Below, piece after piece: positions 2,892 to 50,119 of a DNA stretch of 64,000 nt. The position numbers were made by a program, and so were the translations under genes. The stretch's first letter is position 1; each line of letters starts with the position of its first letter. The notes under the pieces were generated by a model. That model saw only the letters and a program-made list of their open reading frames with translations, had not been told where the DNA came from and did not search any database. This stretch comes from Gracilariopsis chorda (lineage: Eukaryota > Rhodophyta > Florideophyceae > Gracilariales > Gracilariaceae), in the NCBI GenBank assembly GCA_003194525.1, contig NBIV01000029.1, positions 186,001 to 250,000 on the forward strand. The letters are read 5' to 3'.

Positions 2892-3063
2892 TGTGTACGA
2901 AGGTTGTTGACGATAGTGCTTGATGTGACAGCTACGACTGTTGGTGATGTGTTGTGGACATGGTTCAGCGCTGCCGGCGTAGAAGACATGATGAGAAGAT
3001 CAAAGCGAAAAAGTGTTTGGAAAAGTTTTAAGGTTTTGATAAAGTTCTAGAGTAATTAAGATT

Positions 3064-4071: not shown

Positions 4072-4320
4072 TTAGGCCCTTTCTACATTAGACATCTCAC
4101 GGCGCATATTGTCTCAAATACCCGGTATTCTGGGGATTTCCCATTTCACAGGACACTTTCCAAGCTGTCCAATTTTCCCTCCATTTTGGGGTCGCTCGAA
4201 AGCGAGCCCAACTCCGGACCCACGCTTGACCCAACCAAAGGATCATCTCCATGGACACGACAAGACGTCGCTTGGTCGCAATCGCCGTTTGCAACGCATT
4301 AACATGCAATTGGCAACGCC

Positions 4321-7548: not shown

Positions 7549-10500
7549 TCAAGAGACCCGGTCTTGCTGGTAGCTTGCTTCCTGCAGTTCCTCAAAGAGG
7601 GCTGAGACTGCAATATCACTAAGATTACTTATCGGCATGTTTAAGCAGGTTTCTGAATGACCAGCAACAACAGCCAGACATTGAGCTCTAGAAATGGCAA
7701 CATTCAGACGATTTTTGTGCAACGAAAAATGCAGTCCTTTCCGGAGTACGCCGGAGAACTCATTCTTGTCAGGTGACAGCTCGGCTGGGGTTTTGCTTAA
7801 AGCAAAGAATTCATTTTCGTCTTCAAGAATGGCCGCGATACTGCGGGGACTTCCGGTACACAAAGATACCAGAACGACAGGAGCTTGTTGGCCTTGAAAC
7901 TTATCAACCGTTCCCACACGAATTCCCGATGGAAGCTCCTGACGTAATACCTTCACTTGGGCATTATATGGGGCGACAACAAGAATATCATTTGGACCAA
8001 GCTTGCTTGTGACAGAATTTGCAGTATACGTCACTCCTAACAATTGGTTCGCGTACTTGACAATCGCGCTGACTTCTGCAGGTTGTTGCCATTTTGTTAC
8101 TAACGTGGATTCGTGAACTTCGTACTCCGAATCACAAGCTAAGAAGAAGATACCTGAAGTATGGGAATGATTAATGATCTGGACTCCGGCGGTATTCAGT
8201 CCGTTCTTTGCACATATGGTTGCTGGAAGAAGCGAACTATCATAGAAGGTGTTAGAAACAAATTGACATAAAGATGGGGCCATTCGGTACGATTCTGTCA
8301 AGAATATACCGCGAGACACGGGAACTGTTGCAACGTCATCCCCAACAACATATGAGAGACAACTCTTCGAAGTTTCTCCAGGATGAGCTCCCTTGATAGG
8401 CATCTCGAGTTGTTGTTGATCTCCTACCAAGACTCCGTACTTGGCACATGAGCCCATTGCGAAAAAATTGGCTACTGGCACCTGACTAGACTCGTCTACA
8501 AAAAGAAAGTCAAAAAGCGCTTCACTTTCTTCCCGACAGAGTTGGTAGCAAGTTGCTCCGACTAGAGATGCCTTTCTACGTCCGCGTTTGGATTTACGCC
8601 GTGCAACGCTTCCGGGCACCGAAGAAACCGGTTCCACATAATTCGCGTTGCTTCTGCCTGCAATCGGTTTTACATCTAGGTCGCGTAGATTGGCTTTGTG
8701 CGGCATACTCAGATCTTCAGAACATTTGGTTCCAACCTTACATACATGAGAATAATGAAGTCCGCTTCTTACAACGGATCTCAGGAGATTATCTATGGCG
8801 GCGTGCGAGTTCGAACTTACCGCGACTGTCTTATTGTGCTTAGAGATAAGTTCGCAGATAATCCTGGCCGACAGAGATGTCTTCCCACTTCCCGGAGGTC
8901 CCTGGATAACAAGAACGCCAGATGTTCCCCTGGAAGCAAGAAAACCAGCAAGTTTTTGGCCTTGACAGGTCTTTTCTCTCAGAGAGAGCAAGGTATCCGT
9001 TTCCGTATCTTCGTCAAGTCTGCGCCGATTCAAGAATGAAACACAGAGTGATAACGACTTGTCTCTTGTACCGCGTAAAAGGCTATCTCCCTTTCGGCAT
9101 ATGCTCTCTCGAAGTGGGGCGTCGCAGATCTTGAGTTCCTCTGAACTAATAATCGATCCATATTCTGGCGGGGAATCTTCGTCCTTGAGTTTAGCCGTAA
9201 GCAGTACTGTTCCAGTATTTGATCTTCTGGGGCTTTCGAACCCCAAAACTGTCATGAAGCTGTAGATAAGATGGGTCCGATCATGGTTTGCACCAGGTTT
9301 TGTGCGTGTTTTAGAAGGTACTACGAACGCAACACTGTCACCTTCGGCAAGACTGACTACTTGGTCCCGGTTGTAAGAGTATCTGAAGACATGCCTTCTC
9401 GAGTCGTTGAGGTGCTCCTTAGAGTTCAAGATAGACATTCCCGTTATACATTTCCCATCGTCAAAAAGTTCGAAGAATTGAGAATTCACGGCAGCTTCTA
9501 TTCTATCTCGAAATGCGCGACGAACTGGACTTGACTCTCTAACGTAGAAGCCAAGAAGATGAGTCATGGTTCGTTGCGCACTTGGGCGAAGGATCCCGTC
9601 ATCATTTTCCATGATAAGATCACTGATTTCGTTGCTTCTTTGAATAACCTGTGAATCTTCTTGCTTTTTGGACAAAGTACGTCCACAAGCTCCAGGAAGA
9701 ATCTGAACGTGATCCTCTTGTGAGATGACTGGTGAAATGCTTAAAGCTTCAGGGTTGTCATCGTGACTATGAGCGTCTCCCGATGGGAAGTCTTTCGACA
9801 ACCAAACCACAACACGAAGTAAGCTTTCACAGTCTTGTTTGTTGTATTCATATATTTTTTCCAGGATTGGATGAGCCTGGTTGTTCTTGGCTAGATCTAA
9901 ATCCTCGGAGAAGCATTTCAATCTCCATTCGTGGTACATACCAACGGATGATTCGGCATCTGCCAATTCATCATCCTCGCGAATAACTCCAACAATCTTT
10001 TCTATACTCTTAATCGAATAACTTGAATCGCCTACAACCAATGCCGAACGAATGAACTTGTACACATCAAAGAACACTGCTTCCTCGAGTAAAGACTCAA
10101 ACAGACGCGCAGCTTTCAAGCCCTCTTCGGTTTGCACCCTTAAGGAAACTCTTCGTAGGGCACTGACTTCGTAATGACCGTAGTGAAACACGTGAGATCG
10201 TTTTACGCCGTCCACGCTGTGCTCCTCAAGTTTGTTGTTGACCCAAGTTATGAGATGAATGAATGCTTCTTCTTCTTCGGCTCGAGTGTGCGCCCACCAG
10301 GCTTGAAATGAACCATCATTTCTAGTCGATATACCCAACAGATACTCTAGACCACCTTCAATTAATGGATATCCTTCGATGTCGAAGAACATATCTCCGT
10401 CGGAAATGGTGGGCATGCATTCGCTTTGCTCCTTTCTTTCGTAAGCGATACTGCCGCTTTTTCGTGACCTGTATTGCGTACATGCCTGACGGTGAAGCTG

Positions 10501-11544
10501 AACGTGTGCAGTTCGAAGGTCTCCACACGATACCATCGCATTGATTTCGTGAAGTGGAATATTTGCGAAGTCCTTCAACGAACTCACACCGCATTTGCGA
10601 ATAATATGGTTTACCTGCGACGTTCGAATACCGGCAATTAACTGAAGGGAATCAGCGTCTTCAAGGGTTTCCTTCGCGAGAGTTCTCCATGGTGACAAAG
10701 TGTGAATAGGTCCATCTGGAACTGGAATTGGGTGGCATTCATTGAAATTGGACATGAATGAGATATAATCATTCTTAACTCTCCTAAACAAGTACTTGAG
10801 GTCTCTAAAGTTAAGCCGAGTAGGTGGGCTGTGGGGTGGACCGAGACATAGGTAGGCGTAGTCCGGATGCCTGATGCCCAGGCGCCGGTGTACGTCTTGA
10901 AGCATAGACGCGTAACATGCCACTTGTAACGCAAAATCGATTGAGATCAGCGACGAGAACTTGACCTCGCATGGGATGTATGCATTGGGGTCTACATCCG
11001 CTTGCTGACCGCTTGTCACGTATGGATCTATAGAAGAGAGCATAAGCAAATCCGCATACCCGCCGAGCGTATCATCACGAAGTGCAGCTCCTGCAATCAG
11101 GGGTTCTTTGCGGCGAATTGCCTCCTCTGTCAGTTTGTAACGATCTGGGTGTGCGAAAGGGATGCGGTACACAGTGGTGGCTGTTAGAGATTCTAAGTAG
11201 CTCAAAAGACGTTCTTCATGAACGCGACCAGCAGACCTGAGAGCATCTTCTAGGGTGGTAGTTTCATCGCGTTCCGGGGCTAGATCGGGACGTCGGTGAC
11301 ACAATTCATTCAAGTGTGCAACAAAGCGAGAGCGACGAAATGACACGAGATCATGTGGTGATCGAGAGGGCTTTGGCCGTGCCACTGGCTTCTGGGATGG
11401 TTCTTTCGTTTGCACACATCGGGCTTGATTGTCTCGAGTGCCGGGAGAGCCGGGTATACGAAAGCGTTGCACAACCTGTCGTAAAGGATTGCGAAAGAAA
11501 GGAAAATGGAAGAAAGTTGCTCTCCATCCCATGTCGTTTCCCAT
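7549..11544 (-). CDS. RecB-like nuclease / RNase H-like / SF1 helicase fusion (TM0106 type)
   Basis: This is a single-exon gene of 1331 residues; ATG at 11542-11544 is the first in frame. Residues 1-60 are basic and aromatic (MGNDMGWRATFFHFPFFRN), which suggests an organelle-targeting extension. About 95-280 is a PD-(D/E)XK RecB-like nuclease, with D in GGYADLLM near 164 and CEVK near 193. About 385-590 is an RNase H-fold exonuclease-like region (FFDIEGYP, then YNKQDCESL). From about 840 a superfamily 1 helicase follows: GPPGSGKTS (Walker A, near 885), LFVDESSQV (Walker B), VLVGDQQQLEMP, VDKFQGQQAP and NVAISRAQ. This order is that of the bacterial TM0106 family. The role is probably DNA processing or repair; substrate and compartment are unknown. 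Lateral or endosymbiotic origin is likely (inference). The NHE gene starts divergently 0.9 kb away. Confidence 0.9.
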   Translation of the reverse strand: MGNDMGWRATFFHFPFFRNPLRQVVQRFRIPGSPGTRDNQARCVQTKEPSQKPVARPKPSRSPHDLVSFRRSRFVAHLNELCHRRPDLAPERDETTTLEDALRSAGRVHEERLLSYLESLTATTVYRIPFAHPDRYKLTEEAIRRKEPLIAGAALRDDTLGGYADLLMLSSIDPYVTSGQQADVDPNAYIPCEVKFSSLISIDFALQVACYASMLQDVHRRLGIRHPDYAYLCLGPPHSPPTRLNFRDLKYLFRRVKNDYISFMSNFNECHPIPVPDGPIHTLSPWRTLAKETLEDADSLQLIAGIRTSQVNHIIRKCGVSSLKDFANIPLHEINAMVSCGDLRTAHVQLHRQACTQYRSRKSGSIAYERKEQSECMPTISDGDMFFDIEGYPLIEGGLEYLLGISTRNDGSFQAWWAHTRAEEEEAFIHLITWVNNKLEEHSVDGVKRSHVFHYGHYEVSALRRVSLRVQTEEGLKAARLFESLLEEAVFFDVYKFIRSALVVGDSSYSIKSIEKIVGVIREDDELADAESSVGMYHEWRLKCFSEDLDLAKNNQAHPILEKIYEYNKQDCESLLRVVVWLSKDFPSGDAHSHDDNPEALSISPVISQEDHVQILPGACGRTLSKKQEDSQVIQRSNEISDLIMENDDGILRPSAQRTMTHLLGFYVRESSPVRRAFRDRIEAAVNSQFFELFDDGKCITGMSILNSKEHLNDSRRHVFRYSYNRDQVVSLAEGDSVAFVVPSKTRTKPGANHDRTHLIYSFMTVLGFESPRRSNTGTVLLTAKLKDEDSPPEYGSIISSEELKICDAPLRESICRKGDSLLRGTRDKSLSLCVSFLNRRRLDEDTETDTLLSLREKTCQGQKLAGFLASRGTSGVLVIQGPPGSGKTSLSARIICELISKHNKTVAVSSNSHAAIDNLLRSVVRSGLHYSHVCKVGTKCSEDLSMPHKANLRDLDVKPIAGRSNANYVEPVSSVPGSVARRKSKRGRRKASLVGATCYQLCREESEALFDFLFVDESSQVPVANFFAMGSCAKYGVLVGDQQQLEMPIKGAHPGETSKSCLSYVVGDDVATVPVSRGIFLTESYRMAPSLCQFVSNTFYDSSLLPATICAKNGLNTAGVQIINHSHTSGIFFLACDSEYEVHESTLVTKWQQPAEVSAIVKYANQLLGVTYTANSVTSKLGPNDILVVAPYNAQVKVLRQELPSGIRVGTVDKFQGQQAPVVLVSLCTGSPRSIAAILEDENEFFALSKTPAELSPDKNEFSGVLRKGLHFSLHKNRLNVAISRAQCLAVVAGHSETCLNMPISNLSDIAVSALFEELQEASYQQDRVS

Positions 11545-12449
11545 TATTGTTGAAACAAATTGCAAGAAAGAGTTGTATAAATTTTCTTCTCAAGGTTGAA
11601 GGACGTATCGAGCGACGGCTGATTAACAAGTTGTGCTACCGAAACGGAAGAAAAGGGAACTCGTATCATGTACGCGAAAAGAACAATTGCCGAGCGTAGA
11701 GCGTTGTCGTACAGCTTTGCAAAAAGAAGCGGATTTTGTCCAGCGCAGCAGTAGTAGCTTTTAACTTGAGGGCTAATGTTTTATTTCTGGTCGCTGTTCA
11801 CGAACAAGTTGCGAATACTTGGGCGTGATGGAATAGTAAACAGAGAAGTTCTTTCTTCTACGACACATGGGTACCAACGGTATCATCATCAAAGATGAGA
11901 CCAACTATTCTCAAGCTAATGCAGCCCAGATCTGACGTATTTGTATCTATGTAGAGAACCCCTTTTAACCGTTCCGCGTCATGGCGTGCAGTCACTGCAG
12001 ATCCCGAGGTGAAGTGTTATGATAATTTTTTGGAAGCGGTTGAAGTACAATTCGGCAACAATAGTTTTGAAGGGATTCGAACTCTGTAGATAGATATCTT
12101 TCGCCAGCACTCCCTTTCCGGGGCAACCTGTGCATTATGACAAGGAAAGGAATTGATCGCGGCATCCCTTTCGCTACGCCTGTGCCTCATTCATACATCC
12201 AGTTTTCTTTTGCATTCGCTACTTGAGAACACCGGTAACCAGCTACAAGGCGGTCTACGTAAGGATACCAGAGCAGGTTTATTTTCAGCCTCGCTCCGCA
12301 GAAAAGCTTCTCACCACTTAGCTTCCTCGTCAGTCTCCTTCTAAACCGGAATCGGCTTCTCACTTTGCTTCAAAAAGCTGAAGTCTGATGTGTTGAATTA
12401 TTCGTGATAGCTTCAACTATTGGGCTGGTCTGTTTCGAAAAAGGCCGAT
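11545..12449. other. Divergent intergenic region, likely two promoters
   Basis: This 905-bp region separates the divergently oriented nuclease-helicase and exchanger genes, so it should contain both promoters. Short ORFs are present but none looks coding. No clear TATA box or repeated operator was identified. Confidence 0.55.
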
Positions 12450-22583: not shown

Positions 22584-25500
22584 TTGGGAGAGGCGTCCTC
22601 AAAAACGAGGCTGTTGGCGCCCGAGGCGTCCCCGCCTCGCTCCCAAGTGAAAGTCCTCTCGAGGAAAGACACCGCTGACGCGGACTCTGCTCACCTCGGT
22701 GTGTTGCGTCGCCCGTGGGTACGGAGTAAAAATCCCCGGATTCCCGGTAGAGTCTTGGTCTTGGCCAAGTGCAACTATAAGGGCTATGCCGACCTCGACC
22801 TTGATCCCCAGTTTATGGTGAGGTTTCTCACCGTCCTGGATACAGGTGCAGGCCCCAACATTGTTGTGGAATAATTGTTACCCCCACTTGTGCGGTCTCG
22901 TATCCGCTCTGACGCGGTCCCCGACATTTCGGATGCGAACAACAATCCGTTACAAACGGTGGGCACAGTGGACCTCGTCGTGAGACTTGGTACCTCTGTG
23001 GTGAAGTTGGACTTCATCGTTTGTCGTTCATTGGCAGCACCAGTCATACTGTGAAGTGATTACTGCGACATATTTGTCGACGCAATCAGGCCCCACCTCA
23101 CGCGTGTAGAACTTGACGACGGATCGTCAGTTCCGATTGTTCGCCGCCCGCTAAAGCGGTCCTCTCGGAAAAAAGTTCCGCTCCCTGCTGCGCAGGAACT
23201 ACCGCCCGCATCCCGCGAGTCCACCAAGCTCCGCGTCGCGGCCTCGGTTTCTATACCACTTGATTCCCAAGTCTGGGTGCAGGTAAATTCCCGTCAACAC
23301 GGTCTTCGAGTTATACAACCCCTCGCCTCGTTGTACGAGAAATCCCAGCTGGCGCTGGCTAATGGAATTGTCTCCATTTCCCCGGATGTTCCTTTCCGGA
23401 TATTGGTTGCCAATTTTTGCAAACACCCCCAGTATCGGGTAAAACACCAAGTAATTGGGGGTGTAACCCCCCATCCTATGGGAATGCTGCCAACGAAAAT
23501 GACAGCCGCCGATGTACTCGGAGTTACCACCTCTTCTGAGGAGTTCGCCCCGCCGTCCGAAGACGTCAAGTCTAAGGAGGGGGAGGAAACCGCTACTTCA
23601 GCGTCGAACATACCGAGTAACTCGGAATTGGAATTGCGAACCACACCTGTTCCACAGGACAATGCTCCATCGAGCAACGACCGGATTGATCCGGAAAAAG
23701 CACTTGAAGCGCTGAACTTCAGCCACGTGCCAGAGTCGCACCGCGACAAACTCCGTACTATGTTACGGGAATTCACCACAATGTGGGATGGCTCGCTTGG
23801 CGAGATTGATGCAACGGAACACCGGATCGATTTAATCCCCGGTGCACGACCGGTTGCACAACCCCCTTACAGGGCAGGTCCGAAAGCTCGGGAAGAGGAG
23901 CAGTCCCAAGTGGACAAGATGCTCCGCGCAGGTGTGATTGAGCCCGCTCAATCACCCTGGGCATCCCCAGTTGTACTGGCTTTAAAGGCCGACGGAACCT
24001 GGAGGTTCTGTGTCGACTACCGCCGGCTCAATGCCGTGACTGTTAGGGACACGTACCCTATCCCTCGTATAGACGAGTGTATTGACTCCCTTGGAGACGC
24101 CACTGTGTTCACGGCCCTCGATGCCAATTGGGGATATTGGCAAGTACCTTTCAGACAGGAGGATCGCGACAAAACCGCATTCACCTGCCACACAGGAACG
24201 TACCGCTTCAAGCGGATGCCATTTGGGTTAACCAACGCCCCCGCCACCTTTCAGCGTGCAGTAGGTATTCTACTCAACCGCTTTAAGTGGCGGAGTTATC
24301 TGGTCTACCTTGATGATATTATCATCTTCTCCAACTCGTTGGACGACCATCTCACTCACGTCCAAGACGTGCTGACCGTACTCCGCGATGCGGGAATTAC
24401 CCTCAAGTTGAGGAAATGTGAGTTTTTCACAGATACTGTGAAGTATCTGGGTCACATTATCCGTCCTGGACGGTTAGCGATCGAGAAAGCTCGAGCCAAA
24501 TCCCTCGTTGAAGCGAAAGAGCCCCGTACTCAAACGGAACTGGGCTCCTTTTTGGGGCTGGTCAAGGTCTATCGACGGTTTATCCCGAACTTTTCGGATA
24601 CCGCGGCGCCCCTGAACGCGTTGTTGCGAAAGGTGAACCCCCCAAAACTGGGAACATTTACGCCCGAGCAATCGGAAGCCTTTAACTCCTTGAAGGAGGC
24701 TGTCACATCAGCACCAATCCTACATCTCCCAAAACTTGGGTTGCCATACTCCGTAAATACGGACTCGAGCGACTACCAAGTCGGGTGTGCTCTTTTTCAA
24801 ACCACCCCCGAAAGGGAACGACACCCAATCGGTTATTGGTCGCGCTCGCTCAATGTTCATGAGCGGAACTACTCCGTATCGGAGAAAGAGTGCCTCGCCG
24901 TCGTATGAGCGATGACAACTCTGCGCCCCTACCTTATGGGAGTTCACTTCACCGTGTACACGGATCAATCCTCATTGAGGTGGTTGATGAATATGTCCGA
25001 CCCATCGGGACGCCTGATGCGCTGGAGACTCCGCCTCGCGGAATATGACTTTCATGTCATTTATAAAAAGGGCGCGCAGAACACCCAAGCCGACGCCCTG
25101 TCGCGTTTACCCACAAGTGGGGAAGCACTCCCAACGGAGGATGATGAAGTCCCATGTTTCATGGCCATAGACCCAGATGATCCGGAATGTGCCGACGAGG
25201 CTGGGCCAGAACACTGGGACGAGGATGCTGACTTTGACGAACTACTCGCATCGCGAGATGAATCTGAGAACCCGTTACCGGGAAACTTTGTACCGGTATC
25301 ACCGGAAGAAATGATCCGAGAACAATTCGGCGACCCATTCTGTACGAGGATTCGTGCCCGTCCTAACGGTGGTGAACATCTCCCTTTCGGGGTAAACGAC
25401 AAAGGCTACCTCGTACGGAAGGTCGAAGCCCGCCCACAGATTGTGGTACCTCATTACCTGCAGTCGCGGGTGTTACATCTATCACACTACGCCCCCATTG

Positions 25501-26432
25501 GAGGTCACCCAGGTGGGAGGAAACTCTACCTAACCCTGCGAAGGGATTTCTATTGGCCCACCATGGCGGTGGATTGCTACGCAACCGTGTGGTTCTGTAG
25601 CGAATGCGCGAAGAATCGCGTGAAACTTCGCAAAAATGCGAAGAAGATGAAACTATTCCCTGCAAGGGCGCCGCTCGAGTTTATCGCGATCGATATTCTC
25701 GGACCAGTACTCACCACGAAACGTGGAAACAAGTTTCTACTTGTCATTACCGACCGCTTTTCTAAGCTGGTACAGACTGTCCCTCTTCGGAGGATAACCG
25801 CTCTCACGGTGGCCCAGGCTCTGGTGACGCACTGGATTTTCGTCTACGGTCCCCCTGTGGAGGTGCTCTCCGATAACGGGAAGCAGATCGTGAGCAAGTT
25901 CTTCCAGGATGTTTGTCGCATCCTGGATGTCAAGAACTTGTTCACGACTACCTACCACCCCCAGTGTAATGGGCAAGTTGAACGGTTTAACCGGATGTTA
26001 CTCGCGGCGAACGTTCCTACGTCGCAGACCACCCAAAAAACTGGGACATGTACGCTGATGCGTAAACCTACGCGTACAACACGCAGGTACACCGGACTAC
26101 CGGAGTTTCGCCATTCGAGTTGGTTCTATCTAGAACACCCCCGCCTGTGGCGCTGGAACCCCAAGCTACCTTGGACAATTTCCCATCAGTGGGTATCTAC
26201 CGGCAGCAATGGAAGCAATGGCTTTCCAAGCTGGTCCCCGCTGCACGGAAGTCTATGGCACGGGCCCAAGCCGCTTACAAGCGGGATTTTGATGCTCGCT
26301 TGCGAGGGAAACCATCCCCGATTCGGGCGAATAACTACGTTCTCATCAGGAAGGAGTACTACAACCCGGAACGGGAGAAGCGCCATAAACTCTCGCCTAT
26401 GGCGGATGGACCATTCAAGGTCATCTCTGTGA
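22584..26432 (+). mobile_element. Pol region of the chromovirus fossil (PR-RT-RH-IN)
   Basis: The parts follow the Ty3 order. An aspartic protease active-site motif (LDTGAGPN) lies near 22845. Reverse transcriptase with FCVDYRRLN and VYLDDIIIFS falls in 23277-24500, then RNase H (NTDSSDYQVGCALF). The integrase region in 24912-26100 has an HHCC zinc-binding part (HLSHYAPIGGHPGG ... CSEC) and the core segments AIDILGP and LSDNG ... GQVERFN. The region is broken in several places. Confidence 0.88.
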
Positions 26433-37829: not shown

Positions 37830-39168
37830 GTTTAGAAGGCTATGAATTGTCACTATATTAGGGGTTTGTATCGTTGTCTCGCGCACTGTAGCCTTTCTTG
37901 TATACGTGTGGATGGATACCGTTGGTTGGTAAGAGCATATCTCTGGTGCCTCTTGAATGTGATTTAGAGGCAAAATTATAAAGATTGGCATCTGTATTTC
38001 GTCTCTAAATTCTCCACTGGATTGAATAGATTTACTACAGTTTTAAAAGTGCCTCCCAGGCAAACCCGTTTAGGCACACTTTTAGAAGCTGCGTTTAACC
38101 ACAATTGGTCAGTTTTATCAGCGGATCACATGTTCTTTTGGCGAATTAAAGAGCAGAGCTATCTTTTCTGCCCACACGTCTCCGCCAGAGACGTCCTGAG
38201 CTTGTTTACCTCCTTTAAGTCCACTTTCCAGACATAGAACCTGACTATTATCCGTTCACGCTCTGTAACATCACAATTGATTCTTCCGAGGCCTTTGTAA
38301 CTCCTTTTGCTTCACCATCCCCCCCATTGCGGAGGCAAAACCCTCTCACGCAGCACTTATCCATCCAGTATCATGCAATTGACAAACAACATCATACCAT
38401 CTAAGAAATGCCGCTACTCCTGCAACCAGCGAATCAATTTTTGATAGCATTATGTTTGGCAACTTTGCGTGATTGAGAAGTACGGGTTTGTTCTCATCAT
38501 GGTACATTAGAATGTGTTTTACGTATTCCCAGTAGAGTAATAGTGCTCTATGTCAGCTACGAGTCCACGTGACAAATAGTACAGCACGATGGTCCGCGAA
38601 GTATCTCGCACGGAAGACGGCAATTTGGATGAACACCTGATAGAGTTTCGAAGGCATCCAATGTTGGTTCGATAGGTATTCTCTGCATGCTTGCAGTCCA
38701 AGATTTGTACTTTGCTGACAAAGGCGATTTGTCGCCATGGTCGTCGCATAAAGCGCTTTGAACAAGAACAAAGACCGAGATCCAAATCGTTGTCGAGTTT
38801 CTTATTACTTTAATGAGACAGCGGAATGATTGGTCAGAACCTCACCGTCAACACAGCTACTCGTATTTCACCCTCTGCATTTAACGTCGGTGTTCTCGTT
38901 ATGCTAGTTTAGCATTCAAAAGGCAAAGAATTAAAATGAACGAATAACGACTCTTCAAACCCAATTTTGAATGAATCAGATTTCTCAAAATAATTCCATA
39001 CATAGCACAGAGCTAGTTTGCTTGGGACAAAAGACTAGCAGTATACTAGACATTGCCCAGTTTCTTTGGAGGTAAAGCTAGCGCCAGACTCCACTAACAC
39101 CTACCCTCTCAGGTGCACGTGGAATCCAAATCTTACTGGTCCTGAGCGGTGCCCCTTCAAATAGCAAA
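37830..39168. other. Intergenic, no gene recognised
   Basis: Only short ORFs on both strands (for example 38519-38785 minus), none convincing. The left end of the CACTA-like element at 39.4 kb should lie near the end of this stretch, but no terminal repeat was identified. Confidence 0.4.
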
Positions 39169-39169
39169 A

Positions 39170-39198
39170 TAGAATAGATAGAATAGATAGAATAGATA
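39170..39198 (+). repeat. Short AATAGATAG tandem repeat
   Basis: About three copies of a 9-bp unit (AGAATAGAT) lie just upstream of the CACTA-like transposase gene. Confidence 0.8.
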
Positions 39199-39422
39199 CA
39201 TAGAGTTTACATAACCAAATAGCTTTGGCTTTATATCACCCGTTGCTCGACCTGCTCCCTGCATCGCATGCTCTACCCCACGCCCTATGAAAAGACTCTC
39301 TGCATCACGTGCACCACCTCATCTACGTGCGCCATAATTTTACGCTCCCCGATATCCCACTCCGCCACCACCCTCCCTTCTCTGTTTCCAAGCATCCCGT
39401 TCTCCGTTCTCCTTCCCCCGCC

Positions 39423-42400
39423 ATGATACCCCGTTGCCATCCCCGTTGCACGTTCTATGGCCGCACCGCTTTCTCTGTCCAGAGTCACCAACGCAGGTGC
39501 CCTCATCGACTCACCCCCGACAAACGCCCCTCCTCCTCCGCCAACGCTCCCGTCCAGTTCCCTCCGAGGACCAAGCGACGAAAATCCGTTCCAAACCTCT
39601 CCACAATTCCTCCTCCCACTCCCTCACACCGCCCCTCCGACAACGTCCCATTCGCCGAATATGAACCCGATCACATCCAACAGGCCTCCCTTTCCCTCCA
39701 AACACAAGACGAACACCACATGGCAAGTCACGCCCTCTGTTCAGTCTCCTCCTCAAACCCACCTCCCCATACATCGTCCCAATCCCCCTCCCTTCTCCTC
39801 AACAACCCCCATCTCGAGCAACTCGTCCTCTGCATCTCCTCCATCGCTCCCTCCTTCAGCACACGCAAAGCCGACGAACTCATGTCCCTTCTCAACCACC
39901 CGGACTTCTCCAAGTCAGCCTTCCAGAAATCCATCTCCTCCGCAAAGCAGTGCCTCGCACTCCAAGAACACCTCCTCAAGGAACGCATCAGCTCCACCGG
40001 CTTCCTCCCTCTCACACTCACCGACGAGCACAACTCCTTCTCCGCAACCCTCTTCCAAAAACGCACCACAGACGTCCTGAAGCAACAACTCGCTCTCGCA
40101 CACTTCAACAACACCTTCTTCCAACCCATCTCCCAATCTTCCCCTTCCTCCTCTTCCACCCCCACCTTCGCCCATCCTATGGCCGCAGCCTTTGGAAACA
40201 AAGTCGTTTCTGCCTTCAAACATGCCATCATGCAGTGCCACATCAATGACATCGTCTGGCACACCCCCGAAACAACCGGTATGGAATCTTTCGTCGGTCT
40301 CGTCCAGTTATACTCCGATAAGTCCGCCACCTCACTCAAGAGCTCCTCCATCAACTCATATCCCCTTCACATCACCCTTCTCAACTTCTCAGACGCATTC
40401 CGCCGAAAGTGTATCTCCGAATACCTCACCCTCCTCGGATACCTCCCAACTTCCTTCTCCCCCTCTTCCTCCCCCGACCACGAAGACGTCATCCCACATT
40501 CGTCCTCCAACATCCCACGCGAAACAAGAATGGACCTCATTCAGCGCGCCATCTCTGCAATCCTCAACCCACTCTTCTCTTCCGTCCTCCTCGGTTTCTC
40601 ACTCCGTGACGCCCACGGTATACTCCGCCACTGGCACCCCATCCTCTCCAGCTACTGCGCAGACATCCCAGAGGCAAAGGACATCCTCGCCATCTCGCAC
40701 GGAACACGACCAAAGCACCCCTACCCCAGATGTACCGTCCCCCGCGAACACCTCTCCCTCAACATAAACCCCATCCACTTCCGCACACAATCCCAGACTC
40801 GAAACAAACGCAGATAGCACGCCGCTCTGCTTCGCCAGTCCAACGAAGCCCAGCTCCCCCGCAAGCCAAAAGCCGCTCGCACCAAAAAGGAACCAGCAAC
40901 CAGAGCCCTCCAGTCCCTCTCCCTCGCAAAGTATCCCTCTCTCTTCGAATCTTACGCCATTTTCAACATCACTCCCCTTCTCTCCTCTTACAACATCTTC
41001 GCCTTCGAGCCCCTTCACAACTTCCACCTCGGCGTCTCAAAGCTCATCAAAGCCACCGCCATCGAACGACTACGCTCCGAATCACTCTTCACCACAGTCG
41101 GCCCCAACAACACCAAACTTTCCTTCCACTCCATCCGCAACTCCATCCTCAAACACTCCAACTCCATCCTCGCCGCCATCGGAAAGGACTCCCCCGCACC
41201 CGGCCTCCACATCGACTTCTCCACAACCGACAACTCCCAATCCCTCAACGGCTTCTTCACCACAGAAAGCTTACGAGGAATGCTGGAAGCAAAGGATTAC
41301 CGCACCCTCGACATGGTCTTCCCCTTCATCGGCGCCTTCTTTGACAGATGCTGCAAAGAACCCGACTCCTCCCCCATCACTTTTGTCTTCACCAAGTACA
41401 CAGACTTCTTTCTCTCCGCTATTCGATACAACTCCTCCCCCGAATGGACAGACACCTCCCTCCTATCTCTCAAAACACACATCAGATCCTTCAAAGTCAC
41501 AGCCGCATCCATTCTCCGGCCCTACCACTCCTCCCACCTCGGCACCCTCAAGTTCCATCTCCTCGACCACATCTTCGAAGACATACGCCGATACGGGGGT
41601 CTCCAATTCAACGACGCAGGCATCTTCGAGCACGCCCACATCCTCTTCAAATCATATTACTCCAAAACTTCCAAGCGAAGAGCCACCGCCCATACAGAAA
41701 CCATCCGTGCTATAGACCGCTCCAATCTCTTCAAAGACTGGAATCCACTTTCCGTAGACCCTTCCCTATCCTCCCATGCTCGACCTCAACCTCAACCACA
41801 GCCACGCAAACCCTCCTTCGTACGTGACGCAAAACATCTTTCCTTCTATGACATCTTCACAGCCGCAAAGTACCTTGCATCCACCCCCAACGCAAGTCCA
41901 AAATTTCTTCAAGAACTCTTCTCTTCAGACACGCTTTCCATCATCTCACAACTAGGTCACACCACACTTCATTCCTTCGTCTCCCTTTCCATCGAATATC
42001 TCAAGCTAAATCCCGCACCCAACAACCTCCTTCGAACTCGTCTCACCTTCGTCAACTCCGCATACGTCGTCAGCGGTTACACCCCAACACTACACAATTA
42101 CAACAAAGAACGAAACGAACTTGTCCTCCAAGAACCCTCCGTCCCTCTCCTCCAGCGCATCTTCGCCGTTTCATCATTCGGACCTTCCAGATCACCAAAG
42201 ATCTCCCATATCCTTATCGCAGAAACCAACTCCTCCTCTCCATCCACACCCACTGTATGGGTCTCCAAGCTCGTCGCCCTAGTTCGCTTCAAACTCCCTT
42301 CCCCCTCTTCAAGCCCTTCCACCCCCATTACAAAGGAATTCGCTTTCGTACAATTCCTTGAACTCGTACCACCTCGCGACAATGTCGATATCACTCTCCA

Positions 42401-42677
42401 CTTCGTCTGCCTTTGGTGGTCAACCGATGACGAGCGGGACCACACCACCGATCCAGTTCCCATCTCCAAACCTTCGACTGACGACAACGTATCCCCTTGG
42501 TTCGGCCTCATTCCTTCCACCTCCATTCTAGGTGCAGTACCCGTCATTCGAGAAAACTACCCCGCCCCGCCATTCACTCCTCGTCTTCACTGGCGCTTCC
42601 ATCGTTTCTACATCAACCGAATCTATCGTGACATCTTTTCAAAGTCTTACGCCCCACAATCTACAACACATCAGTAA
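39423..42677 (+). pseudogene. CACTA/Plavaka-like transposase, one stop codon
   Basis: One frame of 1085 codons from the ATG at 39423, interrupted only by TAG at 40815-40817. The N-terminus has a zinc-finger-like CHPRC ... H ... C pattern, followed by a Ser/Pro/His-rich linker. Next come blocks typical of Plavaka-type CACTA transposases: LYSDKSAT (the conserved Y-x-D segment), YPLHITLLNF, CISEYLTLLGYLP, HWHPILSSYCADIPEAKD, a PYPRC turn, then EPLHNFHLGVSKLI. The late block FHLLDHIFEDIRRYGG ... EHAHILFKSYY matches the H-x3-H and E-x2-H region near the end of these enzymes. Codons strongly favour C endings. The match is by motif memory, so the superfamily is fairly sure and the subgroup less so. 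Confidence 0.72.
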
Positions 42678-42702
42678 ACCACCCGTTCCACCAGTAACAC
42701 TA

Positions 42703-45118
42703 TTATTCTTCAACTTGTTCTTCATAACGTCCCAGACCTTCCTCCCACTGCGCCTCAACATGATCCGTCGCCTCACCTCTCCCAACATCTCGACTCTCTT
42801 TCACCAACCTCTTCATCCACACATGTTCTGGCCGCCGCGCAGCAACATAACAGTCCAGCACCCCTCCCAGCCGTTTCGTCATATGTTCCAAAAAGTATTC
42901 ATCCTTCACGGCCAAGTATATCCTCCGTTTCGAAGGTATCCACAGCGCTACCGTCACTTCTCTATCCCCATTGCCAGCTATACAACGCGGGTCACCTTCA
43001 TCGCAACCTTCATTCTCCAATTCTTTACGATGTAGCTCTCTCACCCTCTCCCACGCCACACCAAGTAGATTCTCTACCGCGAGCAGAAGTTACTCACCGT
43101 ACAACGTAGAAAATAACAACTGCAGTCTTCCTCCACGCCCCACATCTGTGTCCATTGCCGTCAAAGAACATCCGATCCACGCATCCAAACGAGCCAAATG
43201 CATCACTGTCCCATCAACGTACTCCATCTTTCCCTCCCTTTCCGTTCCCACCTCATATCCCATGAATTCTTCCAACACTTCCACCGCAGCTCCGTTCTTG
43301 AAGTACATGTCCCCTTCACTAAACTCTCTCAGCCGCCCAGCAACCTGAAATCCAGAATACGTAAGATCTTCGATTGTTTTCATCCTCCAAGAACATAACC
43401 TACCAATCCTCGCCTCCCCATCCCCCATGAACTTCGTCTTTACTTCCTCTAAATGCTTCTTCAACTCAATGTCTAGCTCCGTCCCCTCCCGTGGTCTCAC
43501 ACGTCTGGCTATTAAGTCATATCCAAGCAACGAAAACATTTTGTCCCGTGCCGCACGCTTCCGAACCCCAATCACATCACTCAACTTCTGCTTCATACGT
43601 TGCTTCAAGCACCTGTCCGCAACAACCTCCCGCACGCATTGATCCTTCCTACCCGCTTCAAGAATCGACTCCCATCTCTCTCCCTCAATCTCAACGCCAA
43701 CCAAGTACTTCAATAGGTCATTACTTCCTCCTCGCGACGAAGGCGTGTACGACCTCATCTCAGACGCAATCTCAAACGGACATCGAGGTACAATCTCCTT
43801 TCCTCCCCCAACAAACACACTCCCCTCTTTTCCCTTCCCCAATACTTCGCATCGATTCGTCCAGTTCCTTTCCACACCCTCCGAAGTAAAACAAAGCTCC
43901 GATACCTCCACCTTCGCATAGTACAACAACCTATCATATACTACCCTGGCAAACCCATAAAAACCCGCTTGCACATCAACCACATACTTCCTACGCCCTC
44001 ACAATTCCTTTTCACCTTCAGATCCCTTTCTCTCCCCTCGTCTCACCTTCATCCCGTCCCGTAAGCTATCTATCAGCATATTCTTCTCGCTCATATCTTC
44101 TCTCATCCTCTTCAGTTCCTCTTGCGTCCGTTTCAGCGACATCTTTAGGCTGCAGTGGTCCCCTTTTGACCTGCGCGAGTTCTGCCTTCAACATATTGAC
44201 CCTCTCCACTAACGAAGATCGAGACATCACACCGATGTCGTCATTCCGTGCATCTCCCAAAATATTGACAGGCAGCCGTCGCTCCTAAGCAGGCTCACTT
44301 GGCGACCGATGAACACTTCGTTTCCTCTCTTGCATTCCTTCTGGAGTCCGCGGCGTTCTGCTTCCTTTATCACTTTCCAAGTCTTGAGCCATTTGCACCT
44401 TTCGCGCCCGTACCGGGGTGCTCGTACGTTCTCTGCTTTTCGATGCTTCCTGTATTCCATCCGTCGCTCTGACCACTTCTTCCACTTCTCGCGTTTCCTT
44501 TAAATCAGAGCGGCGTCCCACTCTTTCCTTTTTTCTCTCTCTCGTCCATCTCCTCTTCCCAATGTGATCCTCTTCGTCCCCATCACTCTCTACCAAAGGG
44601 ACATTTACCTCTTCTCCATATTGATTACCCCTTGGGGCCCCACCTCTCTTCAGCGCAACTGCCTCTTCCATTTGTTTCCTTTCCGGCATTTCTTCATCTT
44701 TATTTCAGTCTTCGACCCGCGCATTTGCTTTCAAGCCTATCTGATCTGGTACCTCTTCCCTTGTCCAAGCAGCCGACCCTTTCTTGCCCTCCACCCCACC
44801 ACCAGACCCAGGCATAGATCGCTGTCCCCGAACCGAATCTCTCTAGCGTGCTACATGCGCAAGGGCATCAGCCTTCAAATTCTCACTCGTCGTGCGCTCA
44901 CTCGTCGTGCGCTCGGATACGACGTTCTTTGCCCCAACTCTTCCCCCTCTCTTCGAAGCACCTTCTCCTGACCTCCTCCCCGATAATCCGCTCCTGGGAA
45001 CACATGATTTCGCTTTCGTTCCACTCGCCGTTTGCTCCTCAATAGCCTTTTGCCACGTCTTAGCCGCACTCGCCGCACCACCCCTTGCTGGGCCTCGCTT
45101 CTTTCCCTTCGGCGCCAT
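42703..45118 (-). pseudogene. Unknown protein carried with the CACTA-like transposase
   Basis: A minus-strand gene starting at ATG 45118 (MAPKGKKRGPARGG). The first ~350 codons are low complexity, basic and Glu/Arg-rich, with a short duplication (SERTTSERTTSE). The last ~420 codons are globular, best seen at 43983-43090 (VYDRLLYYAKVEVSELCFT, LLKYLVGVEIEGERW, LSDVIGVRKRAARDKMFSLLGYDLIARR) and 43059-42703. It is broken by in-frame stops, including TAG at 44843 and TAA at 43090-43092, and by a frame change near 44000-44066. No known domain. A basic tail plus a globular domain would suit a DNA-binding accessory protein, but that is a guess. It could also be two genes. Confidence 0.5.
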
Positions 45119-45439
45119 TCTTGGAGTCAAAACTCTTGCGCAAGTGGCTGGTGACGCTGTGGGTTGGCGCACGCCGTGTGTTTTCCGGGAAAATCTCGCC
45201 ACCCGATGCGCCCAAAAATATTTGCTTTTTGTGAAATCTTGAAAATACAATCCTCGGTGGTAGTGAAAATGGACGTTTCTGTGTCTCATCTATATCACTT
45301 TTTATCTTCTATCCCTACTGAAAAGTAATATTGTCCTAAGTTAGGACTAGACATCCGTTCACATAATAAACGACATCCTTTAGCCAAGCTGTGGAAAAAG
45401 GTTTATAACAACAAACTAATCAATGACTGTCGTTCCATC
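45119..45439. other. Spacer between the unknown and methyltransferase-SET genes
   Basis: About 320 bp between the methyltransferase-SET stop and the next gene's start on the same strand; it should hold the promoter of the 42703-45118 gene. Nothing specific was seen. Confidence 0.4.
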
Positions 45440-48400
45440 CTACACATTCAAATGGGTTTGCCAGTCATAAACATCACCGTATATGGCGAAGAGTTCCTCT
45501 CCTTGCTCTATGTCGGCTGTCGCCTCCATCTTAATAATTTTGTAGTCCGTTATTCCCCCTAGTGTTCGTCCCACTCCCGGTGTCCGTTTCATTCGCACAG
45601 TAGCCTCCCATTTTTTCACGAGGCCATCCACCATGGCATCTAACTGTTTATCCCCTTCCACGTACTTTGGATCGTTGATATACCCCGCAATACAAAAAAG
45701 GGGCAGGAACCACCAATAAAATGGGGTTTGCTTGTTTTCCATGCCAATTCGTCAGCTGTTTTCGATGCGGAAGTGATTGTAACTGTTGACCGTAGACTTC
45801 TATCTCCACCCCATACTTCCGGAAGCGATCCTTCGTCACACCCATGACTCCCTCCCCGTAGGTCTTGTGCACTTCTTTCAGACTCGAAAGGTCATGATAA
45901 ACCAACGTCCCGTAGAAATAGCACACTACCTCTCCTGCAGCAATTCTACGAGTTGCAAATACTCCAACACCAGCATTTTCGAGACGAATAGTAGACTTGC
46001 CCACTCGCAACCCATATTGCACAGCCTCCATTGCCAAGAGAGACTTCATGTTCTCCAGATTCATTCTTCCCTGCAGCTCCCTCGGCCATCCATCCATAGC
46101 TTTCTTCCTTCCCAACTTCCCTAGAATTTCACTTTGCCACAAAGTGGAAAGAAAGTCGACAGGGTGTGGGGGAAGAATTTGGTACGGTGGAAATCCGTCG
46201 ACAGCCCTCCATAACACTGTTTTTCTGCTTCTTCCCATTGGGAATGCAGAGGAAACACAATGGGCCATCTTTCGAAGCTCCTGGCTCTTCTCAGTATCCG
46301 TGTGTCCTTCCCTTATTATGGAAGCGAAGCGAACAATAGCGGCATGCCTGGCGTGTTCAAAGCAAGCTTTGTCCGGTTCACACCCCACAAACTTCCGATG
46401 CTTGTGCAGTTCCATGCACCCCATGGCTGTCGAGAACGTTCCGGCAAACATTTCGACCACGAGGTCTCCTGGCTGACTGAACCTGCAAATCAGCTCTTTC
46501 AACAGTGCCCTACACTTCTGTTCCGGTGGCACCCTCTTCCTCGTATACTTCCCATCCGGGTTTTTCACAGATCTCATGAGCATCTCACTATTCGACATCG
46601 GCGGCACCTGATCCATGATTGCATGAACGCTGGGTATCGTGAAGCAACGTAATTGAAGTTCTCATCGTTGACCATCCGGTGCTGTTGTGCATCAGGAACT
46701 CCAGACCGAACAGCATGTACAGCGTATTCTGTCGTCTGGTGCAACCGGCAACTTCTTCTCCCAACGTTACCCGTCGTATTACCTAAAGACCCTACATAAT
46801 GGAGGAGCTGTACGTCGACGACAAAGGAGTAACGCTTCGTATCAGATTCATCCATGTAGGTAACTTTCCGTAGCACATCCCGCCACAACGGTACCTGATC
46901 CCATGAGCAGAAATGTATAATATGTCCACCAGGACATAGAAGCTTTGACGACCTCCTCGCTGACCTGCTCATGCCCTTCTCGGTCAGAATACCGTGTTCG
47001 CTGTTCTCCAAACAACGCTCAGAACGAGTCCCATATGGCGGATCGGAAAGCAGGAACTGTACCCTTCTTTCCCTAGATACCTCGCTTTCGCCAGACTTGT
47101 TGTCGTCAACTTCGATGAGATTTTCGAACTTGCAGTTATGGAGACGGAAGTTGCCGGACATCTCCTTCTCACAATACTTGTAAGCTATCACATCATCCAA
47201 AGTCGTAGGGTACGGTGGTGCACAAATCCCCGTGCCTTGGACATCATACGATAAATTATGCGACAAAGCTGTTGTCTGCAGTCCTTCAGTGGTCTTTGGT
47301 GCAGTACCACGTTCCGCAGTAACACGTTCCGCATCCTCTACCATCTCTATCTCTTCCACTTCTTCCAACTCACCCTGCTCACAACCTTCCGCACGCTCAG
47401 CACGTTCGTTCCCACCACCAGCCGTACCAGTTTGTAACGGCTCCATAATGATGTCAACGTCTCCTGCAGGCTCTGGTTTCACAGCTTGATGTACTTTGAC
47501 ATTGCTTCCATGCAATGCAATGAGTTTCAGAGGCTTTATGGCCTCTTGAACCGTATTGACAAGAGATTCATTAAATTTCTCAAACCGCAGAGGGAAAAGT
47601 CTTGTTCTCGTGATGATGAACCTTTTGAGGGCATCCCATTTGCTGGGAGCAGAGATTTGGAACAGTTTCTCTTGTAACACCACATTAGAAAGGTCACCAA
47701 GGTATTCTTTGGCACAAAGGCGAAGCGCTCTATGCACTGGTTCCGGCAGATTCCATGCCAATTTGGTAATGTTTTCTTCTACGGTGGTGACGTTGTTCTC
47801 CTACACAAACTGTTTGGAACAATCTTTGTGTTGGACGTCCATGGAGCGTTGTGCGATATCGGTGAAGACTACACTGATATAGTCGAGTCGAATGTAAAGC
47901 AAGATCATAACCTCAACGTTGGGAAACCCGAGGAATTGGGCGACACAATCCCAAGCCCTGGTCACCAGCTGCACACCATCCCCGACTCTCTGACTCTGGG
48001 TCTTGTCCGACAAACTAACTTTCGAGAACTGCTTAGCTGCCATGCCCCTTTTCCTCTTCCTACCACTTCTTTTCTTATCCACGGCAATCTGTTGCGCCAT
48101 AGACAACCCAATGACCATTTCAAAGTCGGTGCAAGGGTCCGTGTGGAAAGCGGAAGATTTCTTGGTTGCTCCCAGAACACGGGACTTGCAAAAGACAGAT
48201 AGCAACACGTTACGGGGAATTCCTTTAAGCCCTTCCCTTTTACAACAAACCTTCCAAAAGTCCTTTACACGCCTGTCTTGTTCACGGTCCTTTACGTCCA
48301 CCACTCTTGCCATGAGATAGAGTTGACGTAGATGGCCTCTGAGAGACATGTTACGGAGCTCGTAGTCCGAATACGAGATGTAATCCGGTCCGATGAGAGT

Positions 48401-48568
48401 GAGAAACATTTTCTTGACAGAGTCATGAACGTTGCGACTTTGTACCGCGAACTGCATAACGTCGGTGTGCTTCAAACTTCTCGGCTCATCCACATTTTGC
48501 CTCGTCGTTGCGTTGTCATCACGAACTGCAAGATAAGCATCAATAAGCTCTTCTCCGGTTCCGGGCAT
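45440..48568 (-). pseudogene. DNA N6/N4 amino-methyltransferase fused to a SET domain
   Basis: The gene starts at ATG 48568. About 255 codons of unknown fold come first, with a nuclear-signal-like KKRSGRKRKRG. Next, within 47761-46574, the methyltransferase catalytic motif SDPPYGTRSE appears with LLCPGGHIIHFCSW after it. Further on (46616-45648) is the AdoMet-binding motif VVEMFAGTFSTAMGCMEL ... FVGCEPD. The order DPPY before FAG is that of bacterial beta-class amino-methyltransferases (PF01555). A SET domain follows: NAGVGVFATRRIAAGEVVCYFYG and, after a frame change, GYINDPKYV ... DIEQGEELFAIYG. Such a protein could methylate DNA and histone lysines. Damage: a stop at 47801-47803 and frame changes near 46610 and 45735. 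The usual SET NHS motif reads INDP, so its activity is doubtful. Confidence 0.8.
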
Positions 48569-48590
48569 CTTGAATGAACCCGTTTCCTTC

Positions 48591-48761
48591 GGATTATGTT
48601 TCTCTTCGTTTTGGGTCGAGGTCCGTGGTCCGAGGTGTCATGGTGCTCCATCGCGATAACGATGGAGCGCCAGGCATGAATTTTAATTAAAATTTCGCGT
48701 CCTGGCGCTCCATCGTGTTCACGATGGAGCACCGCGACACCTCGGACTATGGACCTCGACC
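48591..48761. repeat. Nested palindromic repeat (foldback), full copy
   Basis: From about 48614 to 48761 the DNA is one large imperfect inverted repeat with ~74-bp arms centred on AATTTTAATTAAAATT. Each arm itself contains a hairpin, GGTGCTCCATCG then CGATGGAGC. It is preceded by GGATTATGTTTCTCTTCG, which also begins the second copy at 49068. It lies 22 bp upstream of the methyltransferase-SET start codon. Confidence 0.85.
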
Positions 48762-49067
48762 AAAAAATTATCGAATTATATTTGCAATGCAAGTAATTGC
48801 GAGGGGAATTGCAGGGATGCTACGTTGACGACAATGGATGTCATGAAAACGATATATAGTGCTTACGTCCATCTCTTTGGAATCTAGCAGGCGTGATCAC
48901 GGGAGCTTCAAAAGAAAGGGGTAACAATGTTGGAGACGACCGCTCCAGTGCTTTGTTCAACAAGGAAAAGTTGTTCTTCGGGTTCGGTAGACGTTTGTGA
49001 TCGCCCAAACCGACGCACCGAATGCGGTTGCGAAGAATGCGTAAGACGCTCTTGACTTAGTTGCCAC

Positions 49068-49161
49068 GGATTATGTTTCTCTTCGTTCTGGGTCGAGATC
49101 CGTGGTCCGAGGTGTCATGGTGCTCCATCGCCATTACGATGGAGCGCCAGGCATGAATTTA
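49068..49161. repeat. Palindromic repeat, left half copy
   Basis: This matches 48591-48683 nearly base for base (GGATTATGTTTCTCTTCG through GCCAGGCATGAATTT) but stops at the centre of symmetry, so only one arm is present. Direct orientation, 477 bp from the first copy. Confidence 0.85.
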
Positions 49162-49500
49162 AGAAGATGCATGGAGGTGGAGAGGAAGATGGGATGGGAG
49201 GTGCTGTCGGGAGAGGGTCTCCGGTTGCTCCTGGAGGTCCAGGTGTTGTGAGAAAGAGGTTGAAGGAGAAGGACGAAGAAAGATTGGAGGGTCGGAGTCG
49301 TTTGAAGAGGAGGCATGGAATGAGGGGAGAGGGAGAGGAAGAATGGTTATGTTTAGGAGTGTACTTGAGGTTGTTAGGACTACGGAGAGAATTTTGGAAG
49401 GGGAGAAGGATAATTGAATGGGTGGTATTTGAATCTGGTGCGCGGTGCGTTGGGTGTATGAGAAGGGAGACAGCTGCCCCGATGAGTTCCTCAGGATGAG
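49162..49500 (-). other. Purine-rich block, possible inverted element fragment
   Basis: The plus strand is strongly G/A-rich here, the mirror of the C/T-rich 39.3-45.2 kb block. Read on minus it gives an open Ser/Pro-rich stretch much like the linker of the CACTA-like transposase. It abuts the half palindrome at 49161. I could not align it to a particular part of the element. Confidence 0.35.
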
Positions 49501-49575
49501 TTGGACGTCAAACTAGGGCAGTAGGAAGTTTGAAAATCCAAAATTGGAAATAAATATGTTAGTTTGGGTTGCGTG

Positions 49576-49618
49576 CTCGAAATGGCGCTGGCCGCTGCGT
49601 GGCCAGCGCCATTTTGAG
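49576..49618. repeat. 18-bp-arm hairpin
   Basis: CTCGAAATGGCGCTGGCC (49576-49593) pairs with the reversed sequence at 49601-49618 around a 7-base loop, with one mismatch. It stands alone in AT-rich DNA. Confidence 0.85.
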
Positions 49619-50119
49619 ATCTGTATCTAGCTTTTAATGGAGAATTAACTTGCTCCAAACTTGAAACTAGCGATGTGCAGTGCAGGTGAGACAAGGCTCT
49701 GTAAGATATGGAAGTGTGAATTCCAAAAACTTCTTTTTTTACTTGGCAAGCGCCAGAAACTAGCAGAATCTATCATTTTCGTAGTTTTTTTCAGCTTTTG
49801 CCTAAAAAACTTGCGATCTAGCACCTCTATCTAGCATTTCGAGAACACTGACGAAGGTCTAGCATTAGAAATCAGCATTTCTGCGCTCAATTCTTGTCTC
49901 TAAAACAGAAAATTAGAGACAGAATATTAGCGGCACATTAGATATGCTCTAAGAGGAAGGCTATACAAGGGCTTGTCCAATAGCGCCACTTTGGGCACTG
50001 CCATTCTCGTTATAGTAATAACCTCAGTGCTGTGGCACAACTACAGAAAGCAGGGCTACAAAGCAATTATACTACTGAAGCGCAAAGAGCTTGGATTTGC
50101 GTTAATATTGAGTTAATGT
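49619..50119. other. Intergenic, AT-rich
   Basis: No gene or RNA recognised. It probably includes the end of the downstream transposon relic, whose terminal repeat was not found. Confidence 0.4.

Follow-up and report, generated by a model that had tools for sequence, protein, structure and literature searches.

The window, a 64,000-nucleotide stretch of contig NBIV01000029.1 (positions 186,001 to 250,000) from the florideophyte red alga Gracilariopsis chorda, harbored a decayed DNA transposon of 10,969 bp at 38885-49853 (coordinates below are those of the window unless a copy is named). The element was bounded by 23-bp terminal inverted repeats (TIRs) beginning CGTCGGTG: the TIR at the transposase end was CGTCGGTGTTCTCGTTATGCTAG (38885..38907, + strand), and its partner at the methyltransferase end, 87% complementary to it, read inwards CGTCAGTGTTCTCGAAATGCTAG (49831..49853, - strand). 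Both TIRs were flanked by the 2-bp target site duplication AA (38883..38884 at left and 49854..49855 at right). The gene extents between them were taken from tblastn with an open copy of the same genome, C53, as query: (i) a Plavaka (CMCT, DDE) transposase gene (39342..42668, +), (ii) open reading frame C (ORF-C), encoding a protein of no known family (42778..45190, -), (iii) a fused DNA methyltransferase–SET gene (45419..48583, -), and (iv) the remains of one more frame, ORF-A (49146..49328, +; E-value 3e-11). As judged from Pfam matches on the window frames, the transposase gene faced the methyltransferase–SET gene in convergent orientation, with ORF-C in between. Subterminal GCTAG[AT] repeats were located at the transposase end (38903..39039; sites 38903, 39012, and 39034) and at the methyltransferase end (49626..49835; sites 49626, 49666, 49759, 49817, and 49830). 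The original prediction had proposed a transposon core at 39423..48568; this span stood as the coding core and fell short of the whole element with its TIRs. The anatomy, mobility, and conservation of the element family were read from the window together with the other copies in the genome (see below).

The transposase was recognized from the window frame 39291-40814 (+), which matched the Plavaka profile PF18759 (E-value 5.2e-18; 65.8 bits, cut-off 26.3) and bore out the CACTA/Plavaka-like transposase first proposed, Plavaka being placed with CACTA/EnSpm in the CMCT group (PMC12730594). The window transposase had 75% identity (tblastn) to the 1160-amino-acid (aa) frame of C53. With catalytic residues assigned from the motif order given in PMC12730594, C53 displayed the order D, D, C(2)C, H(3-4)H, and E (YSDK 372, ADIPE 489, CPRC 510, HLLDH 788, and FEHAH 811), and the window displayed D at 40299-40334, D at 40653-40676, H(3)H at 41553-41570, and E at 41619-41639; it contained the stop TAG at 40815-40817 and YPRC in place of the C53 CPRC, so the first Cys was gone. 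The C2C and E patterns, as written for the scan, had no match in the transposase of the diverged copy C228. The element is placed outside the two described fungal Plavaka lineages by its ends, because its termini CGTCGG..CCGACG are neither the TGT..ACA of PlavakaA nor the CATCA..TGATG of PlavakaB (PMC12730594).

For the fused gene, the unedited window frame 45651-46661 (-) matched PF01555 (N6_N4_Mtase; E-value 5e-8) and the start only of SET (E-value 0.011; 16.6 bits against a cut-off of 22.4), the frame being broken. The methyltransferase motifs DPPY (47015-47050) and then FAGTF (46422-46457) lay on the - strand within 46422..47050 in beta-class order, followed within 45461..45974 (-) by the SET motifs GVGVFA (45924-45974), INDPKY (45653-45697), and YGDVYDW (45461-45499); decay was visible as TAG at 47801-47803, two frame changes, and a stop near the C-terminus. 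A single 1065-aa frame of the open C53 copy matched both PF01555 (66.8 bits, cut-off 26.7) and PF00856 (SET; 23.3 bits, barely over the cut-off of 22.4), with motif IV DPPY at 524 and the S-adenosylmethionine-binding motif I FAGTF at 723, again in beta-class order. An amino-methyltransferase (DPPY, FAG) followed by SET in one gene, and a match to both profiles, were thus found as anticipated. The relative P0010 likewise fused PF01555 to SET, both over the Pfam cut-offs (SET 23.3 bits), and the SET of C637 scored 26.8 bits. The SET domain retained GxGVFA and the C-terminal YG..Y.W, and its match against PDB was weak (E-value 0.011). Motif I, F[AGS]GTF[ST]T, was retained in the frames scanned, and motif IV was DPPY in C53, C336, the window, P0002, P0003, and P0008.

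The best PDB relatives of the methyltransferase half by sequence were DpnA/M1.HpyAVI, M.BceJIV, and CcrM, all adenine enzymes, and by fold of the predicted model they were CcrM, M1.HpyAVI, and M.BceJIV. Because of the DPPY motif and these nearest solved relatives, the methyltransferase half probably makes N6-methyladenine. A profile of the methyltransferase domain recovered 16 relatives: six from Gracilariopsis chorda, labelled hypothetical, CcrMI-like, or YhdJ-like fragments, six others at 181-264 bits, and the last four at just 42-51 bits. Full-length protein searches gave one 94% relative and no other, and among 37 stretches in IMG/VR that fit a pattern, 0 were confirmed as relatives.

ORF-C (821 aa in C53) showed a frame change near 44165 plus several stops in the window; the ORF-C of the open copy had no Pfam match, and the open piece at 43093-43998 of the window ORF-C had a ratio of nonsynonymous to synonymous substitution rates (dN/dS) of 0.15. 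ORF-A encoded 276 aa in C53. The window copy is dead because of the stops and frame changes in the methyltransferase–SET gene, the stops in ORF-C, and the stop plus lost zinc-site Cys in the transposase. Two further structures were observed inside the window element: a G+C-rich hairpin, CTCGAAATGGCGCTGGCC / GGCCAGCGCCATTTTGAG, at 49576-49618, with a similar hairpin at the same place in C53, and a 66-bp stretch present as inverted and direct copies (83-88%) at 48609-48766 and 49086-49151, upstream of the methyltransferase gene.

The open copy C53:85235-97085 (11,851 bp) had all four frames intact: ORF-A 276, methyltransferase–SET 1065, ORF-C 821, and transposase 1160 aa. The 1065-aa frame was found at 4 of the 150 scored PF01555 places and the 1160-aa frame at 4 of the 114 PF18759 places; these place counts, like those of SET, are lower bounds, only the best candidates having been scored. 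Blocks common to C53, C187, or C14 and other fetched copies were mostly 99.0-99.85% identical (98.1-98.8% in a few), and the window copy was 74-81% identical to related copies. Because near relatives are mostly 99-99.8% identical, the family was recently mobile. The near-identical copies ended in the same TIR as the window, CGTCGGTGTTYTCGGAATGCTAG, for which 239 genome-wide matches with two or fewer mismatches were counted, against one for the reversed-pattern control. The 2-bp target duplications matched in 16/16 copies: 5/5 whose two ends could both be inspected (judged by eye), 10/10 further copies (taken from TIR pairs among the first ~100 of the 239 matches), and the window itself; mispaired flanks, as the control, agreed in 4/90, and 3-bp duplications were found in 0/10.

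A Plavaka (PF18759) place lay within 10 kb of 71/150 PF01555 places, where chance predicts ~3.7, and all but one of the 71 pairs (70) were convergent; conversely, 71/114 PF18759 places had a methyltransferase within 10 kb, each facing it. Downstream of 59/150 PF01555 places, at a distance of 0.7-1.0 kb and in the same orientation, a SET match was located, accounting for 59 of the 85 SET places. With these pairings and the uniform duplications, the expectation that these genes would keep occurring as a set, bounded by common TIRs and a short duplication, was confirmed. Internal deletions were present in many copies, and 43/114 Plavaka places had no methyltransferase match within 10 kb; because some of these lone places sat between paired TIRs ~7-8 kb apart (C15 and C109), shortened copies seem to multiply too. 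In C187, C64, and C37, the methyltransferase N-terminus was replaced by a common stretch of ~1.3 kb, which perhaps represents captured host sequence; this stretch contained a 287-aa frame that looked hydrophobic and matched no Pfam family (G000:C187 4606-5466, -).

Copies at greater distances were compared for selection. C53 and C336 (72% identity) differed at 17, 14, and 41% of first, second, and third codon positions, with dN/dS values of 0.14 for the methyltransferase, 0.24 for SET (112 codons), and 0.16 for the N-terminus. The deep pair C53–C637, in which synonymous differences were saturated, had proportions of nonsynonymous differences of 0.36 in SET and 0.40 in the methyltransferase versus 0.51 in the N-terminus and 0.53 in the linker. 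The C228 copy, of subfamily B, had 49% identity to C53 in the transposase and 32% in the methyltransferase. Both domains were kept in a family just 36% identical, and by these patterns the methyltransferase–SET fusion is conserved across families.

C53 and the window element had 11 GCTAG[AT] sites each, 8/11 of them within the outer 300+300 bp (p 6e-9 and 1e-8, respectively), and several sites were equally far from the ends in the two copies though one-fifth to one-quarter of the bases differed. Among the 16 four-base palindromes, CTAG showed the strongest enrichment at the ends, 8.2-fold in C53 and 8.7-fold in the window; the runners-up were GGCC in C53 (2.8-fold) and TTAA in the window (5-fold; 3/11). 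The diverged C228 copy ended in CGTCTGTGTTTTCGGAATGCTAG and had 11/26 CTAG within its last 300 bp (p 4e-11), and GCTAG[AT] repeats thus recurred at one end of a deeply diverged subfamily. Of the subfamily-B TIRs, the right one was found, and a 2.2-kb stretch examined for the left one did not contain it. No end enrichment of GATC, GANTC, or ATGCAT was detected in C53 or the window, save for six and five GANTC, respectively, in the last 450 bp. Because CTAG co-occurs with the ends of elements carrying the methyltransferase, our guess is that CTAG could be its methylation target.

An exon-wise search detected no cytosine-5 DNA methyltransferase (PF00145) in the host, with the control positive in 10/14 genomes. 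PF05063 (MT-A70) gave no hit either, but its control was positive in no genome, and this negative carries no weight. Since no such enzyme was detected, the element need not be undoing 5-methylcytosine and may instead set its own mark. The surroundings of the element included other mobile sequences: a DDE_Tnp_1_7 (piggyBac-type) gene at 792-2999 (-), a DDE_Tnp_4 (Harbinger-type) gene at 4303-5466 (+), and a gypsy-like reverse transcriptase–RNase H–integrase region at 23055-26429 (+). A 1346-aa open frame at 7552-11589 (-) combined an RNase_H_2 nuclease domain with an AAA_11/AAA_12 helicase located after it.

The window copy is a dead member of an old, recently active Plavaka family, and the reading to which we give about even chances is that the fused protein of this family is an element-encoded writer acting on the element's own copies. 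A full element has TIRs beginning CGTCGGTG, makes 2-bp duplications, and carries four frames, with the transposase facing ORF-A, methyltransferase–SET, and ORF-C. The fused protein would mark copies of the element itself: the methyltransferase half would methylate adenine, plausibly in the CTAG palindrome of the GCTAG[AT] repeats near its two termini, and the SET half would methylate a histone or another protein bound at the ends. Such marks would set whether the transposase can use the ends or would keep the element genes on, and the effect might be shielding from silencing, gene activation, or timing of end use. In the maize Spm element, subterminal methylation controls its use and activity. 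TET is thought to play a comparable role in fungal Plavaka (PMC12730594). We infer that the element may place two marks, one on DNA and one on histones, either on itself or at its target; the more specific version, in which one protein writes adenine methylation on terminal CTAG together with a lysine mark on nucleosomes at these ends and the 66-gene methyltransferase expansion of Asparagopsis (see below) is the same element, is rather doubtful.

Several observations weigh against a writer of this kind. SET domains usually carry an NHxC motif, and C53, C637, and P0010 have INDP[KR]Y at its place. At motif IV, C228 and C12 read DAPY, C637 reads DAPT, and P0004 reads DSPY, and because of these changes methyltransferase activity may be lost or altered in some subfamilies. 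In subfamily B, the frames of C228 and C12 do not encode a complete SET, and this young pair has a dN/dS of 0.81. N4-cytosine enzymes (bdelloid N4CMT and PvuII) match the predicted model too, at lower rank. The mean predicted local distance difference test score of that model was 31.6 for P0002 alone and 41.2 with 12 relatives, the latter good in the methyltransferase core alone and poor in the SET part. The GCTAG[AT] repeats may simply be binding sites of the transposase or of ORF-C. Lastly, 79/150 PF01555 places have no Plavaka match within 10 kb; such unpaired methyltransferase places, like the unpaired Plavaka places, may reflect decay, contig ends, deletion, or true absence.

Other explanations account for parts of this pattern. 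The methyltransferase half might restrain or time transposition, with fully methylated ends usable only when hemimethylated after replication and with SET tethering the element to chosen chromatin. The analogue would be IS10/Tn10 under Dam control, and the concentration of an adenine-bearing palindrome, CTAG, at the ends agrees with it, as does a methyltransferase of adenine type; the target site is putative, however, the bacterial methyltransferase belongs to the host and not to the element, and the sequence would look the same under anti-silencing. We regard this timing role as unlikely. A protein that mainly binds DNA or chromatin as a transposition factor, with one or both methyltransferase folds catalytically dead and binding conserved, would explain why motif IV varies with motif I kept and why SET reads INDP, but DPPY is intact in C53, C336, the window, and P0003, the match to PF01555 covers the entire domain, and selection on the methyltransferase is as strong as anywhere in the protein, so that we think it quite improbable. 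That the fused gene is a chance-captured passenger, or serves the host and not the element, is very unlikely in our estimate: capture does seem to happen (the ~1.3-kb replacement in C187, C64, and C37) and the 79 methyltransferase places apart from Plavaka fit it, yet the gene is under purifying selection and the gene order is kept across families differing in at least half of the transposase and methyltransferase residues. Beta-class methyltransferases are typical of bacteria, which would suit bacterial contamination or an assembly artefact; the copies nevertheless lie in many places on contigs up to 1.36 Mb with flanking bases duplicated, the methyltransferase is fused to SET, and gypsy, piggyBac-like, and Harbinger-like elements surround it in the window, leaving this explanation a negligible probability. 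Contamination was rejected on the long contigs, the duplications at the element borders, and the SET fusion. A fungal host, to which the Plavaka transposase and the best score of host Set1 (against yeast Set1) had pointed, was discarded as well, because the Gracilariopsis chorda protein P0011 (BWQ96_00201) matched contig C1 of the genome at 100% over 234 aa.

If the fused protein does write both marks, the element would carry its own epigenetic address in a host without detected cytosine-5 DNA methyltransferase. A cut-and-paste transposon in which a single protein unites a writer of DNA marks with a lysine-methyltransferase domain would then raise a direct question: can a mobile element establish its own chromatin state?

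Transposons bearing one epigenetic enzyme are known, with TET in fungal Plavaka and SET in oomycete HarbingerS and MuDR (PMC12730594). A published methyltransferase–SET fusion in a transposon, Plavaka included, was not found in the literature searched, an absence that was lightly tested and with the Gracilariopsis chorda genome paper outside the search. The TET-carrying fungal Plavaka resembles the red-algal element in combining a Plavaka transposase with the gene for an epigenetic-mark enzyme and in its 2-bp (or 3-bp) duplications; it differs in its termini (see above) and in carrying an eraser (TET/JBP) where the red-algal element has the fused methyltransferase–SET (PMC12730594). Full Pfam scans of the methyltransferase–SET, ORF-C, and transposase frames gave no TET/JBP, and no genome search was made for PF12851. 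Phytophthora HarbingerS/MuDR are likewise DNA transposons with a SET protein, but they belong to other transposase superfamilies, and the cited part of PMC12730594 mentions no DNA methyltransferase in them. Plavaka is also mentioned beside giant repeats in Amoebidium (PMC11244446), and a PF02384-type N6 methyltransferase is described in fungi (PMC13297926).

Mobile elements with their own DNA methyltransferase include the retrotransposons SymbioLINE, SymbioDIRS, and KnitGypsy and a DIRS with a Dam-like adenine methyltransferase (PMC5890265). The KnitGypsy methyltransferase is reported to be under purifying selection, with a Ka/Ks (nonsynonymous to synonymous substitution ratio) below 0.2 (PMC5890265). 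Unlike the red-algal element, these are retrotransposons with C5 or Dam-type enzymes rather than PF01555, and no SET is mentioned in the cited portion of that text (PMC5890265). Bdelloid rotifer N4CMT likewise stems from eukaryotic capture of a PF01555 amino-methyltransferase, which became linked to a chromatin domain; it is a host gene, however, with an SPPY motif, N4-methylcytosine as its mark, and a chromodomain reader where the red-algal element has SET, and it is said to have no eukaryotic homologues (PMC8885841).

A parallel in a red alga is Asparagopsis taxiformis, for which 66 N6_N4_Mtase genes were described as potentially the most striking feature, with four given for Gracilariopsis chorda (PMC12115072). 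What it shares with the present case is an expansion of PF01555 in a red alga; that of Asparagopsis was reported as gene duplications, and the cited sections draw no link to transposons or SET (PMC12115072). A figure legend for the Asparagopsis bromoform (mbb) cluster lists one site-specific and one adenine-specific DNA methyltransferase (PMC12115072); both may have come from an element of this kind that sits next to the cluster. We infer that the Asparagopsis expansion may belong to the same family as the Gracilariopsis chorda element, which would offer a possible simple explanation for the published, unexplained excess of N6_N4_Mtase genes in this red seaweed, which is cultivated for its methane-lowering bromoform (PMC12115072).

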